DNA from: Hyphomonas pacifica
GTDB lineage: Bacteria > Pseudomonadota > Alphaproteobacteria > Caulobacterales > Hyphomonadaceae
Direction: 5' to 3'
Assembly (NCBI RefSeq): GCF_000682675.1
Contig: NZ_AWFA01000012.1
Span: 62,001 to 126,000, forward strand
DNA length: 64,000 bases
The position numbers were made by a program, and so were the translations under genes. Every line of letters starts with the position of its first letter. The first letter of the stretch is position 1. The notes under the pieces were generated by a model. That model was not told the origin of the DNA and ran no database searches. It saw only the letters and a program-made list of their open reading frames with translations. Positions 1,418-8,415 of this stretch are shown piece after piece.

Positions 1418-2305
1418 ATGAAAGTGACTCCGCTTTTAAGTCTCGGACTGTCTGCCGTGCTGGGGATCGGTGCAGTCCTTCTGGGGCGGTATTATATGAC
1501 CGCTGACAATAATGACGCCGACGCGCAGCCGCAAATGGCTGCCGTCGAGATGGCAAGTGTGCTGGTTGCTGCTTCTGCAATTGAGCCGGGTGAGGAAGTG
1601 ACGAGTGCGCAGGTGCGTAGCGTCGAGTGGCCAACCAACGCTTTGCCGGAAGGTGTTTTGCGAGGCGCCGCAGATCTGGAAACCGTCCGTTATGCGCGAG
1701 GGCTGATCCTGCCGGGTGAGCCGATCATGGCAGCCAAGCTGGATGAGGCGAGCAACCTTCTCACGCTGGCCGCAGCCATAGAGCCGGGCATGCGTGCCGT
1801 AGCAATCACGGTACGGAGTGACACGGGCGTTGCCGGGTTTGTGCTACCGGGAGACCGCGTCGACGTGAACGAGTTTATTGAAAAAGAGCCTGGTAATACG
1901 GCCACTTATCAGGATGGCGATCAGGTGCGTGTTTCAGGCAAGATGATCGCGCGGCCTGTGCTGCGCAATGTCAAAGTGCTGGCTATAGACCAGACATTTG
2001 AGTCCAACATGGAAGGGGCTTTCCCATCCAACACTGTGACGCTGGAAGTCACACCCGAAGGCGCGCTCGCCCTGGGTGCAGCCGGTACGCAGGGCGCTTT
2101 GGGCCTGGCGCTGATCGGCCGTGCGGAAGAGGCGGATGTCGTGTCAGTGGTGAAGGCCGAGCCCAGGAAGACCATTGTGCGACGCAGCCCCAGCCGGTCC
2201 GTTACGCCGCGTACGACCAATGTTCGCGTCATTAATGGTGACAAGGAAACCCAGGTCGATGCGCCGGTTTCCAAGCCCAAAACCCTGACAGAGGAGGCGA
2301 GCTGA
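1418..2305 (+). CDS. cpaB: Flp pilus assembly protein CpaB (RcpC)
   Basis: A 295-residue protein of the CpaB/RcpC family, an inner-membrane or periplasmic component of Tad (type IVc) pilus secretion. Residues 7-30 are hydrophobic (signal anchor). A SAF-type domain follows, with VLVAASAIEPGEEVTSAQV at about 49-68, then the RcpC domain with AVAITVRSDTGVAGFVLPGDRVDV. The C-terminal 50 residues are basic and low in complexity. It opens an operon running to tadC; its TGA shares a base with the cpaC ATG, so translation is likely coupled. Two small inverted repeats lie in its leader. Confidence 0.93.
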   Translation: MKVTPLLSLGLSAVLGIGAVLLGRYYMTADNNDADAQPQMAAVEMASVLVAASAIEPGEEVTSAQVRSVEWPTNALPEGVLRGAADLETVRYARGLILPGEPIMAAKLDEASNLLTLAAAIEPGMRAVAITVRSDTGVAGFVLPGDRVDVNEFIEKEPGNTATYQDGDQVRVSGKMIARPVLRNVKVLAIDQTFESNMEGAFPSNTVTLEVTPEGALALGAAGTQGALGLALIGRAEEADVVSVVKAEPRKTIVRRSPSRSVTPRTTNVRVINGDKETQVDAPVSKPKTLTEEAS

Positions 2306-3594
2306 TGACTGGTCTGATCCGTATCGCTGCCTGTGCAGTATCCTGCGCAAGCCTGAGTTTGCCATCCTTTGCCTGGATAGAACGCACCTCCGCCCCAGAA
2401 GCGCAGGTGCTGGTGCTGGAAAAGGGACGCTCTACCGTTATTGAGGCAGATGAGGCGTTTGCCACTTTGGTGGTGGCAGATCCCGAAATTGCTGAAGCCA
2501 TGGCGACTTCCAACCGTTCTTTCTTTCTGCGCGGCAAGGTGCCGGGGTCTACAACGGTCCTGATTTATAATGGCGATGGCGAGATTTCCGAACTGATCGA
2601 CGTCGAGGTTGAGCTCAGTCTAGACGAACTTCGTAATGACCTTGGCAATCTTTTGCCCGGTGAAGATATATCCGTATACCCTGTTCATGATGGCGTGTTT
2701 CTGGACGGAAAGCTGACCACAGCTGCCGCAGCCGAGATGGCGGTGCAGCTGGCTGAGCGATATGTGCCGGGAGGTGTCGCCAATGGGCTGTCAGTCGGTC
2801 AGAGCCAGCAGGTGCTTCTGGAAGTGCGCTTTCTGGAAGCCAGTCGTACAGCGGTGAAGGAAATCGGCTTTGGCAACACAATTGATGCCAGAGATGTCTA
2901 TTCGTCCACAGATCCGGGGACAATTTCAGGCCTTGCTTCCAAGACGGTCGCGCTGTTCACGAATGTGGGAGGTGAAAACATTGATGTTCAGCTGCGCGCG
3001 CTTGAGGAAAAAGGCATAGTTCGTACACTGGCAGAGCCAAATCTGGTGGCGCTTTCCGGAGATACAGCCAGCTTCCTGGCAGGGGGCGAATTCCCTATTC
3101 CGGTCGCGAACAATAATGGCGAGATCACCATAGAGTTCAAAAAATTCGGTGTCAGCCTGGACTTTACCCCCACAGTGCTGGGGGACGGGCTGGTGAATTT
3201 GCGCGTAAGGCCGGAAGTGTCGCAACTGGACCGGTCTAACGGCATCCGCGCATCCAGCATCGAAATCCCCGGTATTTCTGTGCGCCGTGCCGACACAACG
3301 GTCGAGCTGCATGACGGGCAGGCCTTCGCCATCGCAGGATTATTGCAGAATGACTATTCCAATGATGTGCGGCAGACGCCCTGGCTGGGCAATGTGCCCG
3401 TGCTGGGCGCGCTGTTTTCTTCAAAGCGCTACCAGCGCAATGAGAGCGAACTGGTGATCATCATTATCCCGCGCATGGTGCAGCCAGCAGCGCATCCGGA
3501 ACTGCTCTCCAATCCTCTGCAAGCCTTCGCAGAGCCGAGCGATTCCGAATTGTTCCTGCTGAACAAGACAACCATACCGCCGGTCGTGAACTGA
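2305..3594 (+). CDS. cpaC: Outer-membrane secretin CpaC (RcpA)
   Basis: A 429-residue secretin forming the outer-membrane channel of the Tad pilus. It has an N-terminal signal peptide (about 1-23), a pilus-assembly N domain and BON-like segment (about 30-165), and a C-terminal secretin domain. Secretin motifs include VRTLAEPNLVALSGDTASFL and GGEFPIPV, and near the end LPVLGALFSSKRYQRNESELV-type sequence (here NVPVLGALFSSKRYQ). A GAGGAGG ribosome binding site lies in the end of cpaB, and the start overlaps the cpaB stop as TGATG. It would pair with the short CpaD-like lipoprotein encoded next. Confidence 0.94.
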   Translation: MTGLIRIAACAVSCASLSLPSFAWIERTSAPEAQVLVLEKGRSTVIEADEAFATLVVADPEIAEAMATSNRSFFLRGKVPGSTTVLIYNGDGEISELIDVEVELSLDELRNDLGNLLPGEDISVYPVHDGVFLDGKLTTAAAAEMAVQLAERYVPGGVANGLSVGQSQQVLLEVRFLEASRTAVKEIGFGNTIDARDVYSSTDPGTISGLASKTVALFTNVGGENIDVQLRALEEKGIVRTLAEPNLVALSGDTASFLAGGEFPIPVANNNGEITIEFKKFGVSLDFTPTVLGDGLVNLRVRPEVSQLDRSNGIRASSIEIPGISVRRADTTVELHDGQAFAIAGLLQNDYSNDVRQTPWLGNVPVLGALFSSKRYQRNESELVIIIIPRMVQPAAHPELLSNPLQAFAEPSDSELFLLNKTTIPPVVN

Positions 3595-3604
3595 GGATCG
3601 AGAG

Positions 3605-3874
3605 ATGAAAACCGTATCAAGAGCTTTGGGGCTAATCGCTGTCATCTGCCTGCCTGCCGCCTGCACCACGCAGGAGCAGCAGGAAGGCTATATTTTGGGT
3701 CAGGCGACCGCTGACAATATCGCCATACAGGCCGTTCGCGATGTTGTCCTGCCAAATTCAAAGGCCGTTGAAACCACATCCGGTGTTCGCGCCGCGCAAG
3801 CGGTAAAGGCGCTGAATGAAGGCAAGACGAAAGAACTTCGCCAGGCCTCGGCCAACGCCACGGGGGGCAGCTGA
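3605..3874 (+). CDS. Miniature CpaD-like pilus lipoprotein
   Basis: An 89-residue protein in the position normally held by cpaD, between the secretin and cpaE genes. Residues 1-20 form a lipoprotein signal with lipobox LPAAC, so Cys20 should be lipidated. The mature part is only about 70 residues. It contains ATADNIAIQAVRDVVLPN followed by RAAQAVKALNEGKT, which resembles the C-terminal third of CpaD (a conserved Ala-x-x-Asn block, a D-[LV]-V-x-P block, then a short Lys/Arg-Gly tail helix). Standard CpaD proteins are about 200 residues or more. I infer a signal peptide joined directly to the CpaD C-terminal segment. The stop overlaps the cpaE ATG (ATGA), so it is expressed with the operon. It could also be an unrelated small lipoprotein. 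Confidence 0.6.
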   Translation: MKTVSRALGLIAVICLPAACTTQEQQEGYILGQATADNIAIQAVRDVVLPNSKAVETTSGVRAAQAVKALNEGKTKELRQASANATGGS

Positions 3875-5088
3875 TGTCATCGGCTGCAAGAAAACTGGAT
3901 GGTGAAGGCAGGTCTGCACCCCTGCGTCAGATACCGGCAATTGCTGCCCTTGCGGGCCCAGCCTGTATGGCGCAGCTGCGCACGGTATGCCGCGATGTGA
4001 TTGACCTGTCGCAGATGGATCCCGCCAAGGCCGTGCAGGCATATGGCGGTGCGCTCTTGCTGCTGGAACATGGCGTTCCCGGTGTAGAGCAGATCGTGCT
4101 GGGCCTCGCGATGGAGAAACCGGACACCGCCGTGCTTATGGTTTCCGATAATCTGCCAGTACATATTGTTCGGGCCCTGATGAAGCTGGGCGCGTCAGAT
4201 ATTCTTCCGGTTTCCGCCCAAGCCTCAGACATTGTCGAGGCGGTCGAGAGACTTAAAGAAAGCGTAGAGGCCGTAGAGCGCGGTGGGGATGAGCGATCCT
4301 CTGCCGTCTGCTGGGCTTTTCGCGGCGCGGTCGGGGGCGCAGGCGTTACCACAATGGCGATCGAAAGTGCGTTTGCTATTGCCGAGAAAGTGCGCGGTGC
4401 AAAAGTCTGTCTTGTCGATCTGAACCTTGCAGATGGCATGACGAGTTCATTTCTGGAGGCTGTACCGAAACTGGACCTGCCTGCGTTGTCGGCCGCGCCA
4501 GAGCGTCTGGATGCGCGCCTGCTTGCCGCGTGGTGCTATCAGCATCCCGATGGCGTGTCCGTTATCACGGCGCCGCGTAACCCAGATGCCGATGAACTTG
4601 GAACTGAAGCGGCCATACTGCGCCTGCTGGATGTGGCTTGCGCTGAGTTTCAATATGTCCTGGTAGACATGCCGCGCCACATGATGCCCTGGACCAAGCC
4701 GGTTATGGGGGCCGTCGATGAGGCCGTTATAATCAGTGAGCTGACGGTACCCAGCCTTCATGCCGCGGCTGACATGGCGCGAGATGTGGACATTCTGCGC
4801 GGTGATGCCGGCAAGGCCAAGCTGGTTCTGAACCGGATGTTTCCGAAAAAGCGCTTCCGTGCGGAGTTTGCAGTCGACAAGGCTGAAAAAGCCATCGACC
4901 GGAAGATCGATGCGACGATTACGTCTGACTGGGACGCCGCCCGCACAGCTGTCAATCTGGGCAAACCCATTGCGGATGTGAAGCCTAAGAGCGCCCTGGT
5001 CGCCGATGTGGCGAGATTTGTGGATTTCCTGTTGCCTGAGGGCGTGGCGGCAGAGGCGAGCACAATAGGCAAAAGGCGCGCAAAATGA
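3874..5088 (+). CDS. cpaE: Pilus localisation ATPase-like protein CpaE (TadZ)
   Basis: A 404-residue MinD/ParA-like protein that in Caulobacter directs the Tad machinery to the pole. Residues about 30-130 look like the atypical receiver domain of CpaE. The P-loop-like region is GAVGGAGVTT at 151-160; it lacks both lysines of the deviant Walker A motif (KGGxGK). CLVDLNLADGMTSSFLE follows as the switch region. The start overlaps the CpaD-like stop and its own stop overlaps cpaF (ATGA at 5085). Loss of the lysines is seen in some TadZ proteins, so weak or no ATP hydrolysis is plausible but unproven. Confidence 0.92.
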   Translation: MSSAARKLDGEGRSAPLRQIPAIAALAGPACMAQLRTVCRDVIDLSQMDPAKAVQAYGGALLLLEHGVPGVEQIVLGLAMEKPDTAVLMVSDNLPVHIVRALMKLGASDILPVSAQASDIVEAVERLKESVEAVERGGDERSSAVCWAFRGAVGGAGVTTMAIESAFAIAEKVRGAKVCLVDLNLADGMTSSFLEAVPKLDLPALSAAPERLDARLLAAWCYQHPDGVSVITAPRNPDADELGTEAAILRLLDVACAEFQYVLVDMPRHMMPWTKPVMGAVDEAVIISELTVPSLHAAADMARDVDILRGDAGKAKLVLNRMFPKKRFRAEFAVDKAEKAIDRKIDATITSDWDAARTAVNLGKPIADVKPKSALVADVARFVDFLLPEGVAAEASTIGKRRAK

Positions 5089-6485
5089 GCCGATTTGGAT
5101 TCTCTGGCGGAGGTAGCAAACCTCAGGAGCCTGCCTCCCAAACGCTGCAAGTTACACCGGTTGCTTCGCCTAAACCTGTTCAGCCTGTGCCTGTTCCGTC
5201 AAATGACACGAAGGGCTTTGACCAGCTGGATGCGAAACTGCGTATCCATGCCAAGCTGATTGATGAACTGGATCTGTCTGCGCTGGACAAGCTGGATGAT
5301 GAGACCATGCGCCGACGCGTCCGCGCAATTGTGTCAGAGATCATCAAGAAGGAAGACATGGCCATGTCTGCTGCGGAGGAGACCAGCTTTGCCGATGCCG
5401 TGATGGACGAGATGACAGGGCTTGGGCCAATCGAACCTCTGCTCAAGGACGATTCCATCGCGGATATCCTGATCAATGGCTGCAATCAGGTATATGTCGA
5501 GCGCCATGGCAAGCTGCAGATCGCGCCCGTGCGCTTTGCGGACAATGACCATTTGCTGCGCATTGTGCAGCGGATTGTCTCTGCCGTGGGGCGGCGCGTG
5601 GATGAAAGCCAGCCGCTGGTCGATGCGCGTCTTCTGGATGGCAGCCGTGTTAATGCTGCAGTGTCTCCCATCGCTATTGATGGTCCGTTGGTTTCCATTC
5701 GGAAGTTCTCGAAATCTCCGCTGACCATGGAAAAACTGGTGGGTTTCGGTGCCATTCCGCAGCCTGTTGCAGACTTCATTCTGGGCGCTGTGAAGTGCCG
5801 CGCCTCAACGGTGATATCTGGCGGTACAGGCTCCGGCAAGACGACACTGCTGAATGCGCTATCTTCCGCGATCAGTCCGGATGAGCGTCTTATCACAATT
5901 GAAGATGCCGCTGAGCTTCAATTGCAACAGCCCCATGTCGCGCGCATGGAAACCCGTCCGCCGAATATTGAGGGTAAGGGCGAGATTCGCCAGAGGGAAC
6001 TGGTCAAGAACGCGCTGCGGATGCGTCCTGACCGGGTGATCCTGGGCGAGGTGCGCTCTGAAGAAGCGTTCGACATGCTTCAGGCCATGAATACGGGCCA
6101 TGAAGGTTCCATGGCCACGATCCACGCCAACAATCCGCGCGACGCGCTGACGCGCCTGGAGCAGATGGTGATGATGGGGGGAATGAAAATTTCTGAAGAG
6201 GCCATCCGTGGTCAGATAGCCTCTGCCGTAAACTTCATCGTTCAGGCGACACGCCTGTCGGATGGGTCGCGAAAAGTCGTGTCCATTGCTGAGATTACCG
6301 GTATGGAAGGCGCTGTTGTGCAGATGCAGGAGATCTTCCGGTTTGAGCGCACCGGTACCACCGATGACGGCAAGGTGCTCGGCCATTTCGCCGCGACCGG
6401 ACTTCGCCCGCAATTCCTGGATGAGATGGAACGCCGCGGCGTTCACCTGCCGCCAGGTCTGTTTGATCCTTCAACCCGTTTCTAA
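5085..6485 (+). CDS. cpaF: Tad pilus secretion ATPase CpaF (TadA)
   Basis: A 466-residue type II/IV secretion ATPase that powers Tad pilus assembly at the inner membrane. The N-terminal 45 residues are Pro-rich and variable, and an N-terminal domain runs to about residue 200. The ATPase core has Walker [10 protein letters not shown] at 246-254, [17 protein letters not shown], a Walker-B-like [16 protein letters not shown], and the His-box [16 protein letters not shown]. The gene is translationally coupled to cpaE by a 4-base overlap and followed 12 bases later by tadB. Confidence 0.97.
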
Positions 6486-6497
6486 GGCCCCACCAAC

Positions 6498-7481
6498 GTG
6501 CCCTCACTGCCTGATCTATCAAATATCAGCATGGTTCTGGTGATCCCTGCCGTCATGGCAGCAGGGGCAATTTTTCTTGCGATCCAGTCGGTGGTGGGGC
6601 TTGTCACGAATGCACAGACACACCGCATCGTGAACCGAAGGCTTCAATTCAAGGAACGCTTTGAAACCAGCAATGAGGCCATGATTGAGCTGCGCAAGAG
6701 TCGGGGCCTGGACAAGGATGGCAATCTGTCCATGCCGGTACGGTGGTTCAATCATCTGGCTGTGAGATCCGGTTTGCCCTTTCAGCCCGTGCGTTGGTTC
6801 GGTATGTCTGCTGTTGCAGGCCTCATAGCTGGGTTCGCCTATATGCGGTTTGTGGGCGGATGGCCGATTGCGGTCAGCATAGCCTTGGTCATTTTCATCA
6901 TGGGACCCATCATCGGGCTTAAGTTTGTGGCGGGCACACGCATGAAAAAGCTTTCCCAGCAATTGCCGGATGCGTTGCAGATTGTCTGCCGAAGCCTTGA
7001 GGCAGGCCACCCGGTTGCCACCGCCGTGGCGCTGGTGGCACGCGAAATGCCGGACCCGATCGGCACGGAATTCGGTATGGCAGCGGATGAAGTGTCTTAC
7101 GGTATGTCGCTGACCAATGCCGTACAGCGGATGGCGATCCGGGCAGGGGATCCCGATGTCGAACTTTTCTCGGCAACGGTGCGTCTGCAGGAACGTACAG
7201 GCGGCAATTTGTGTGAACTGTTGAAAGCCAACACCACGACCATCCGTGAACGTCAGACCATGCGCCTTAAAGTGAAGGCGGCTTCTTCAGAAGGACGTGT
7301 CTCTGCCATGATCCTGACAGCCGCGCCTTTTATGGTGATGGGGGCGATCCATGTGATGCGTCCGGAATTCTATGGCGAAGTGATCGACGATCCGCTGATC
7401 AGGATTGTGTTTCCCTTACTGTTCATCTGGATGGGCATTGGAAATCTGGTCATGCGCAAGATGATCAATTTCAAAATGTAG
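6498..7481 (+). CDS. tadB: Tad inner-membrane platform protein TadB
   Basis: A 327-residue membrane protein of the T2SF/TadB family, half of the inner-membrane platform on which CpaF acts. Hydrophobic helices lie near the N-terminus (about 12-35) and around 95-140, followed by a cytoplasmic T2SF domain with LPDALQIVCRSLEAGHPV, and a C-terminal pair of membrane segments (about 270-320). The start is a GTG at 6498 with no clear Shine-Dalgarno; an in-frame ATG at 6531 (residue 12) is an alternative. It lies between cpaF and tadC in the same operon. Confidence 0.94.
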   Translation: MPSLPDLSNISMVLVIPAVMAAGAIFLAIQSVVGLVTNAQTHRIVNRRLQFKERFETSNEAMIELRKSRGLDKDGNLSMPVRWFNHLAVRSGLPFQPVRWFGMSAVAGLIAGFAYMRFVGGWPIAVSIALVIFIMGPIIGLKFVAGTRMKKLSQQLPDALQIVCRSLEAGHPVATAVALVAREMPDPIGTEFGMAADEVSYGMSLTNAVQRMAIRAGDPDVELFSATVRLQERTGGNLCELLKANTTTIRERQTMRLKVKAASSEGRVSAMILTAAPFMVMGAIHVMRPEFYGEVIDDPLIRIVFPLLFIWMGIGNLVMRKMINFKM

Positions 7482-7494
7482 GGGGGAGACGTAG

Positions 7495-8415
7495 ATGAAC
7501 TTTTCTCTCACCACACTCATTCCTATCGTGATGCTGGCGCTAGCGGGATTCCTGGCCTTGCCTGCCATCCTGGCTTTCGTGCGCAGTTGGCGTGCCAAGG
7601 AAGACCTTGAGAGGCGACTTGAGCGCCGGCATTCCCGCCCAAGGGAAGACTCACCTCGCAATGAGAGCCGTATAGGCCGCGCGGTCATAGGCTTAGCAAA
7701 TAAGGCGACCCCCCAGAACGAAGAGGCGGTCAGCGCCGTACGCGGCAAGCTGAACAAGGCAGGGTTTACCGGGCCAAATGCCGTGGCACGTTATTACGTA
7801 GCCCGTCTTATCTGTCTGGGTGTGCCGCCGGTTATTCTGCTGATTGCGCTGCCATACATGAAACTCTCCAGCATGATGATCCTGATGATCAGCATTGGTC
7901 TGGTGATTATCGGCCTGTTGGCGCCGGACTTTTACCTCAACAAAAAGGCAAAGCAGCGCGAACAAATGTGCTCGACCGGGTTTCCGGACATGATGGATCT
8001 GATGGTGGCGTGCGTTGAGGCCGGGCTCAGCCTAGATGCCGCCGTGCAGCGGGTTGGGGAAGAGCTGGAAACGCGCCATCCCATCATTGCGGGCTACATG
8101 CGCACATTGTCTCTGGAACTAAGGGCGGGCAAAGCACGTAAGAATGCGTGGCGTGCATTTGCGGACCGGATGGCTATTGAGGAGGCTGGATCACTGGCCA
8201 CAATGCTGCGCCAAGCAGAAGAGATGGGGACAAGCCTGGGGCAAACCTTGCGAATATTTTCGGCCGATATGCGTCAACGCCGCATCCTTCTTGCGGAGGA
8301 AAAAGCTATGGCGTTGCCCGCGAAAATGACCCTGCCACTGATTTTCTTTGTGTTTCCTGTACTTCTGGGCGTGTTGACCCTGCCTGCCGTCGTGAAGATA
8401 CAAGGCATGTTTTAG
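7495..8415 (+). CDS. tadC: Tad inner-membrane platform protein TadC
   Basis: A 306-residue T2SF-family membrane protein, the partner of TadB. A first membrane segment lies at about 5-27, a basic cytoplasmic stretch at 30-70, two helices at about 100-145, the T2SF domain with GFPDMMDLMVACVEAGLSLD, and a final membrane helix at about 280-303. A strong GGGGGGA ribosome binding site (about 7481-7488) precedes the ATG. This is the last recognisable pilus gene; accA begins 48 bases further on, so tadD, TadE/F/G-type genes, pilin and prepilin peptidase must be elsewhere. Confidence 0.94.
   Translation: MNFSLTTLIPIVMLALAGFLALPAILAFVRSWRAKEDLERRLERRHSRPREDSPRNESRIGRAVIGLANKATPQNEEAVSAVRGKLNKAGFTGPNAVARYYVARLICLGVPPVILLIALPYMKLSSMMILMISIGLVIIGLLAPDFYLNKKAKQREQMCSTGFPDMMDLMVACVEAGLSLDAAVQRVGEELETRHPIIAGYMRTLSLELRAGKARKNAWRAFADRMAIEEAGSLATMLRQAEEMGTSLGQTLRIFSADMRQRRILLAEEKAMALPAKMTLPLIFFVFPVLLGVLTLPAVVKIQGMF

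Follow-up and report, generated by a model that had tools for sequence, protein, structure and literature searches.

The window analyzed in this study, which is the whole stretch of 64,000 nucleotides from the genome of Hyphomonas pacifica, contained a Tad locus, whose genes and subregions with coordinates below were located on the forward strand. The locus included cpaB of the alignment subcomplex (1418..2305; TIGR03177, E 1.2e-59), the secretin gene cpaC (2305..3594, 429 aa; PF00263, E 2.1e-44), a gene encoding a CpaE/TadZ-like ATPase (3874..5088), the motor ATPase gene cpaF (5085..6485; PF00437 (T2SSE), E 5.3e-61, and TIGR03819, E 1.4e-101, the latter under its cut-off), and the platform protein genes tadB (6498..7481) and tadC (7495..8415), both assigned based on PF00482 (T2SSF) and position. 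The cpaE/tadZ-like gene was identified by its position and by matches to the TadZ_N, BcsQ, and Ssd profiles, all under the cut-offs. An accA-like gene, named by eye, came next after tadC. Based on the trees described below, CpaC belonged to a secretin clade with short CpaDs. Additionally, the locus-2 CpaC of Hyphomonas (window 3540-3594; L116-L120) ended without the short C-terminal G(Y/H/F)xx sequence of many other CpaCs.

In the slot between cpaC and cpaE, an intact open reading frame with an ATG start encoded a protein of 89 residues (3605..3874), referred to here as mini CpaD. It started 10 bases after the cpaC stop, a gap too small to hold residual sequence from a longer CpaD, and its TGA shared one base with the cpaE ATG (TGATG). 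The protein began with a signal peptide and the lipobox LPAAC (3605..3664), read by eye from the sequence, in which Cys20 is encoded at 3662-3664 and the proline at three places before the Cys is unusual. The lipobox Cys, followed by 69 residues in this protein, was kept in all 24 Hyphomonas copies, and in every copy the 11th residue after it was the start of a core motif, LGxAxxxNIxxQ (residues 31-42; 3695..3733). In the alignments, this motif was the counterpart of GCxxxxNLAAM in CpaD, and it lay within the first helix of both structural models, at low confidence in the mini CpaD. A second block, SGVRAAxAVKALNEGK (residues 59-77; 3779..3835), corresponded to the RRxVILEKFRSGE block of CpaD and to the second modelled helix.

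A search of 41 genomes identified the mini CpaD, uninterrupted by stop codons, in all but one of the 25 Hyphomonas genomes (24 genomes, E <=5e-19), while the 16 genomes of other genera of the order yielded seven weak matches (E ~0.009 or worse) and nine no match. The sole Hyphomonas genome lacking the gene, G021 (93% complete), also lacked this CpaC; its CpaC matches showed at most 40% identity to this CpaC, and the best of them was located on the contig of its canonical locus. In all 14 genome pairs compared, dN of the mini CpaD was well below dS (ratio ~0.01-0.22, with some dS values saturated), and the mature core had changed less than the signal peptide in 13 of the 14. The mini CpaD is a real gene under purifying selection. 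The reading frame, its presence across the genus, and the dN values confirmed the claim of the first-pass annotation that an 89-residue lipoprotein lies between cpaC and cpaE. An assembly artefact or a recent deletion was ruled out because the same arrangement was repeated in other genomes.

Similarity of the mini CpaD to the C-terminal block of CpaD

The first-pass annotation had proposed that this protein is a CpaD restricted to its C-terminal segment and that a profile search of the single protein would reveal it. The direct search did not do so: the 89-residue protein matched no Pfam or NCBIfam family even at E 10, and the curated cut-off of PF09476 was not reached. The restriction to the C-terminal segment was supported by profile-profile comparison with relatives from other genera. 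When signal peptides were retained, hhalign paired the signal peptides of the Hyphomonas copies and CpaD and not the module; therefore, mature parts were used in later profile comparisons other than that of the 41 short proteins below. The mature parts of the 24 Hyphomonas copies alone aligned over 49 ungapped columns with the last block of CpaD at a probability of 17.3%, and none of 300 column shuffles matched the observed score (best 18.4 vs 24.9). Likewise, none of 300 column shuffles matched the score of the mini CpaD against short CpaDs.

The match became strong because bridging sequences from other genera were added. A profile of 41 short proteins (24 from Hyphomonas and 17 from other genera), compared with 19 full CpaDs, gave a probability of 95.8% (E 6.6e-9), with 63 columns aligned to residues 148-219 of a CpaD that is 236 residues long; this comparison kept the signal peptides, so that its first few columns align the signal-peptide end with CpaD. 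A profile built from the mature parts of 20 short proteins of other genera, omitting L104 and L076 of the same family, recovered all 24 Hyphomonas copies at 16.0-36.9 bits (28.5 for the H. pacifica copy), with the best of 4800 shuffles at 11.5 bits. The same profile aligned in the last 40% of all 29 full CpaDs, of which 26 outscored every one of 2900 shuffled tails (at most 9.6 bits) and three fell within the shuffle range. With ten short proteins of families f2-f5, the H. pacifica copy scored 24.2 bits against at most 12.0 for shuffles, and with the eight f4 proteins alone it did no better than shuffles (9.5 vs 9.6 bits).

Slot and lipobox were the initial criteria for choosing the short proteins from other genera, which were then labelled with profiles containing them, at a permissive cut-off (E up to 1) and, in several cases, with a start codon chosen downstream of the longest frame. 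The leave-one-out comparison, in which close kin were removed as well, was an independent check of these labels: all 21 short proteins beat 300 of their own shuffles, L076 narrowly (10.9 vs 9.8). Among nine proteins searched against PF09476, L104 passed, three ran under the cut-off, and five, including the H. pacifica copy, gave no CpaD match. Taken together, these comparisons support the mini CpaD as a homologue of the C-terminal block of CpaD.

The lack of any Pfam or NCBIfam match and the 17.3% of the Hyphomonas-only profile would also be expected of an unrelated small lipoprotein with a chance likeness to CpaD in an alanine-rich helical stretch. We regard this explanation as highly improbable and close to refuted, since none of 4800 residue shuffles and none of 300 column shuffles reproduced the match, and since relatives in the same slot bridge to CpaD, with the slot protein L104 passing the Pfam cut-off. 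The 95.8% profile match and the leave-one-out results led to the same rejection.

The mini CpaD shares with the CpaD of the Caulobacter Tad pilus (PF09476) the slot after cpaC, the lipobox, and the C-terminal helix-linker-helix block. Unlike CpaD, which has 225 residues in C. crescentus and 236 in the canonical copy of the same genome (with a chosen start), the 89-residue protein has no OmpA-like domain, no conserved Cys pair, and no match to PF09476 on its own. The model of the full CpaD from the same genome had an OmpA-like core at residues 47-149, mostly at high confidence, and beyond it lower-confidence helices spanning 175-184, 188-191, and 200-213; the 69 residues past the Cys of the mini CpaD are too few for such a core. 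In Foldseek, the best four matches of the full CpaD model were domains that are OmpA-like or bind peptidoglycan (E 1.5e-3 at best, with a probability of 1.00); none reached E 0.001, and unrelated hydrolases followed from rank 5. The model of the mini CpaD was poor (pLDDT 61.9, pTM 0.23) and contained helices at 24-43 and 59-71 after the signal peptide, so that the helix-linker-helix order common to both models is of low confidence on the mini CpaD side. In all 29 full CpaDs, one Cys preceded the GC motif and its partner lay within the motif; this pair was absent from all 24 Hyphomonas mini CpaDs, which had no Cys beyond that of the lipobox. Sequence searches of solved structures gave no useful match for the short form (best E 0.16, over the N-terminal 54 positions) and only a weak match to Pal for the full CpaD (E 0.046).

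Short CpaDs in a separate clade of Tad secretins

When this CpaC was searched in 200 genomes of the order, 117 had a match at E 1e-60, and the best-matching loci of other genera were taken for comparison; many of them carried a short lipoprotein in the same cpaC-cpaE slot. A tree of 90 CpaCs, in which L050 and L121 are from the same genome, was split with full support into 36 rows (34 with full CpaD and two with short CpaD) and 54 rows, of which 33 had a short CpaD, 10 a core motif in the CpaC tail (nine by a strict pattern and L135, "none" by that pattern, recounted by hand), 11 neither, and none a full CpaD. Most of the rows with full CpaD came via a search for the CpaD family, so their pairing with canonical CpaC is partly built in, whereas the rows with short CpaD were collected by CpaC similarity, so their pairing is not.

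A wider CpaC search at E 1e-75 covered 289 genomes of the class and gave a match in 32. The 28 class loci examined outside Hyphomonas comprised 17 with full CpaD, six with short CpaD, three with none, and two without an assigned state (L151 and L164); two further class genomes gave no locus. A second tree of 85 rows, which omits 33 of the 90 earlier rows and includes the two class rows without a state, showed the same split: 49 rows without full CpaD (27 short, 10 with the tail motif, 11 neither, and one without an assigned state) against 36 rows in which the C-terminus-only proteins L104, L145, L162, and L169 were placed among full CpaDs. The positions of these four were moderately supported, with L104 and L145 on long branches. 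The linkage of cpaC, the mini CpaD, and cpaE held in the loci examined.

These results demonstrate that short CpaDs mark a separate clade of Tad secretins and that the mini CpaD belongs to a short-CpaD type that is widespread. The first-pass annotation had described one odd gene cut down from CpaD; the short form stands, its singularity does not, and, as the CpaC trees are unrooted, "cut to" may misstate the direction of change in this clade. A second type of Tad secretin is thereby defined, whose CpaD is missed by the Pfam model, the short proteins of the clade that were searched against it running under its cut-off or giving no CpaD match. As a separate observation, L081, L089, and L093 contained three genes between the short CpaD and cpaE that were TadG/TadE/TadF-like by eye, and Hyphomonas has none there.

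In g12, a sister genus of the same family, cpaE directly followed cpaC in all 15 CpaCs examined, leaving no cpaD gene in the slot; the genomes G048 and G070, with no CpaC match at the search threshold, are outside these 15. Ten of them (L078, L080, L082, L083, L084, L092, L098, L099, L135, and L136) had (F/L)GxAVxxNIxxQ, or a motif closely resembling it, in the C-terminal tail, and the five lacking it formed one nested group. The g12 tails (e.g., L092 and L099) and the mini CpaD have in common the core motif, the Tad locus, and the secretin clade, but the motif lies within the secretin chain in the former and the mini CpaD is a separate gene. When these ten tails, selected for showing the motif, were compared by profile with short CpaDs, the result was 93.5%, and none of 300 column shuffles matched the score (best 16.8 vs 33.5). 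Singly, six tails scored 7.6-13.9 bits and the rest less or nothing, several of them within noise since shuffles reached 11.5 and unrelated frames ~9 bits; only the first part of the module was recognisable in the tails. The view that CpaCs with no following cpaD are plain losses was dropped after the motif was found in some tails, as confirmed for g12 and not for f2: six f2 CpaCs of the clade and three f27 genomes had neither a short CpaD gene nor the tail motif.

Outside the clade, C-terminus-only CpaDs matched PF09476 only between positions 131 and 200. The slot protein L104 (genome G193, 125 aa) passed at positions 131-198 of the 200-position profile with 53.5 bits (cut-off 31.1). The two other proteins over the cut-off, L169 (G324, 153 aa) and L145 (G193), in which no lipobox was seen, account for scores of 69.0 and 35.4 bits, and L162 (G242, 119 aa) was just under it with 28.4. 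The mini CpaD resembles these four proteins in matching only the C-terminal part of CpaD, but they match PF09476 directly and retain the kind of Cys pair found in full CpaD (counted in L104, and read from the sequences in L169, L162, and L145), and their CpaCs are on the full-CpaD side of the secretin tree. The genome G193 (4.0 Mb, scored 100% complete) harbored at least four Tad secretin loci (L102, L103, L104, and L145), with Flp genes near at least three Tad loci, and could serve as a natural test case. It contained no full-length CpaD over the Pfam cut-off and only C-terminal CpaDs.

Full-length CpaD was identified in 24 of the 25 short-CpaD genomes tested, the exception being G193. In H. 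pacifica, it was located at G000:C45 in a distinct canonical Tad locus together with Flp, prepilin peptidase, and TadE-type genes. A full-length cpaD elsewhere in the genome, combined with an unrelated lipoprotein in the slot, had been foreseen in the first-pass annotation as speaking against its claim; the former was found and the latter was not borne out. The full-length CpaDs in those genomes could serve in trans, and 11 of the 54 clade CpaCs have neither form, as would suit a homologue that is idle in secretin assembly, with the canonical CpaD serving both secretins and the short copy having drifted to another use. We consider this quite improbable in view of the purifying selection on the mini CpaD, its linkage to cpaC and cpaE in the loci examined, its absence together with the locus in G021, and the occurrence of only C-terminal CpaDs in G193.

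Putative role of the mini CpaD at the secretin

The available part of a study on C. crescentus (PMC13170226) describes CpaD as required for Tad biogenesis and as an essential outer-membrane partner of the Tad secretin, with a predicted N-terminal OmpA-like fold able to bind peptidoglycan. There, CpaD was modelled as a dodecamer fitting a spoke-like belt around the CpaC barrel; the part touching the barrel is not spelled out in that portion of the text. The short forms and the motif in the CpaC tail suggest that the belt contact is made by the C-terminal block. If so, the mini CpaD would be a lipid-anchored belt unit without the peptidoglycan arm.

The best explanation, which we consider probable, is that the gene product is a short form of CpaD. 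This lipoprotein of the outer membrane would comprise a lipid anchor, a spacer of ~10 residues, and the helix-linker-helix module from the CpaD C-terminus, which would bind the CpaC barrel and help the secretin. Binding of the mini CpaD to CpaC is what we infer from the sequence comparisons. The core motif starts 11 residues past the putative lipid-bearing Cys; therefore, the module would have to sit near the membrane. Its binding site may lie on the outer surface of the CpaC barrel, close to the inner face of the outer membrane, probably with one copy per secretin subunit, and this binding would help the secretin to assemble or to remain in the outer membrane. The grip on peptidoglycan, which full CpaD is thought to add via its OmpA-like domain, would be missing in this Tad system.

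A small lipoprotein encoded next to the secretin, whose motif starts 11 residues past the Cys in every one of the 24 Hyphomonas copies, could also be a CpaD C-terminal homologue acting as a pilotin or transient chaperone, which would escort the secretin to the outer membrane and not form a permanent belt. TadD of P. aeruginosa is described in PMC13170226 as the pilotin of its secretin, and the TadD/CpaO pilotin and RcpB are likewise small proteins linked to Tad secretins, a likeness drawn from their descriptions in PMC13170226 and PMC10934763. However, the TadD orthologue CpaO is described in PMC13170226 as an alpha-helix-rich horseshoe, apparently unlike the mini CpaD, whose mature part of 69 residues was modelled at low confidence as two helices. 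In addition, a motif inside the secretin chain, as in g12, is more readily explained by a resident component than by a transient escort. We therefore regard the pilotin as unlikely and favor the short CpaD as a resident partner of CpaC.

With less confidence than for the short CpaD itself, we find it plausible that CpaD is a two-part protein, whose C-terminal helix-linker-helix would be a portable secretin-binding module, found joined to a domain that binds peptidoglycan, carried by itself on a lipid anchor, or present as its core motif in the secretin tail. The Tad machines with short CpaD would then represent a distinct architectural type that lacks CpaD-borne peptidoglycan anchoring. We hypothesize, as did the first-pass annotation, that the mini CpaD shows which part of CpaD is needed. 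The short natural forms and the CpaC motif suggest that secretin binding resides in a single block of ~50 residues, and the OmpA-like domain would be a separable peptidoglycan anchor, a division of labour that could be tested with short constructs. The 11 of 54 clade CpaCs with neither CpaD nor tail motif indicate that the module is not always needed. According to PMC10934763, P. aeruginosa has no cpaD homologue and assembles Flp pili nonetheless, in agreement with our observation that CpaD is absent from some Tad systems. No account of short CpaDs was found in a literature search on CpaD/CpaC/Tad, short or truncated CpaD, and the Hyphomonas pilus, with preprints and most subscription journals outside its scope.

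In profile searches of the H. pacifica genome, the contig of the window gave no match for Flp, prepilin peptidase, or TadE-type genes, so that any pilus made by this locus may use parts taken from other loci. An Flp pilin gene (L131:9895-10074, G000:C1), with no Tad genes seen around it, was located on a contig different from those of both Tad loci and is a candidate pilin for the window locus. In addition, five more relatives of the CpaF ATPase (32-36% identity) were identified on G000:C6, C57, C35, C16, and C53, two of them with one in-frame stop.
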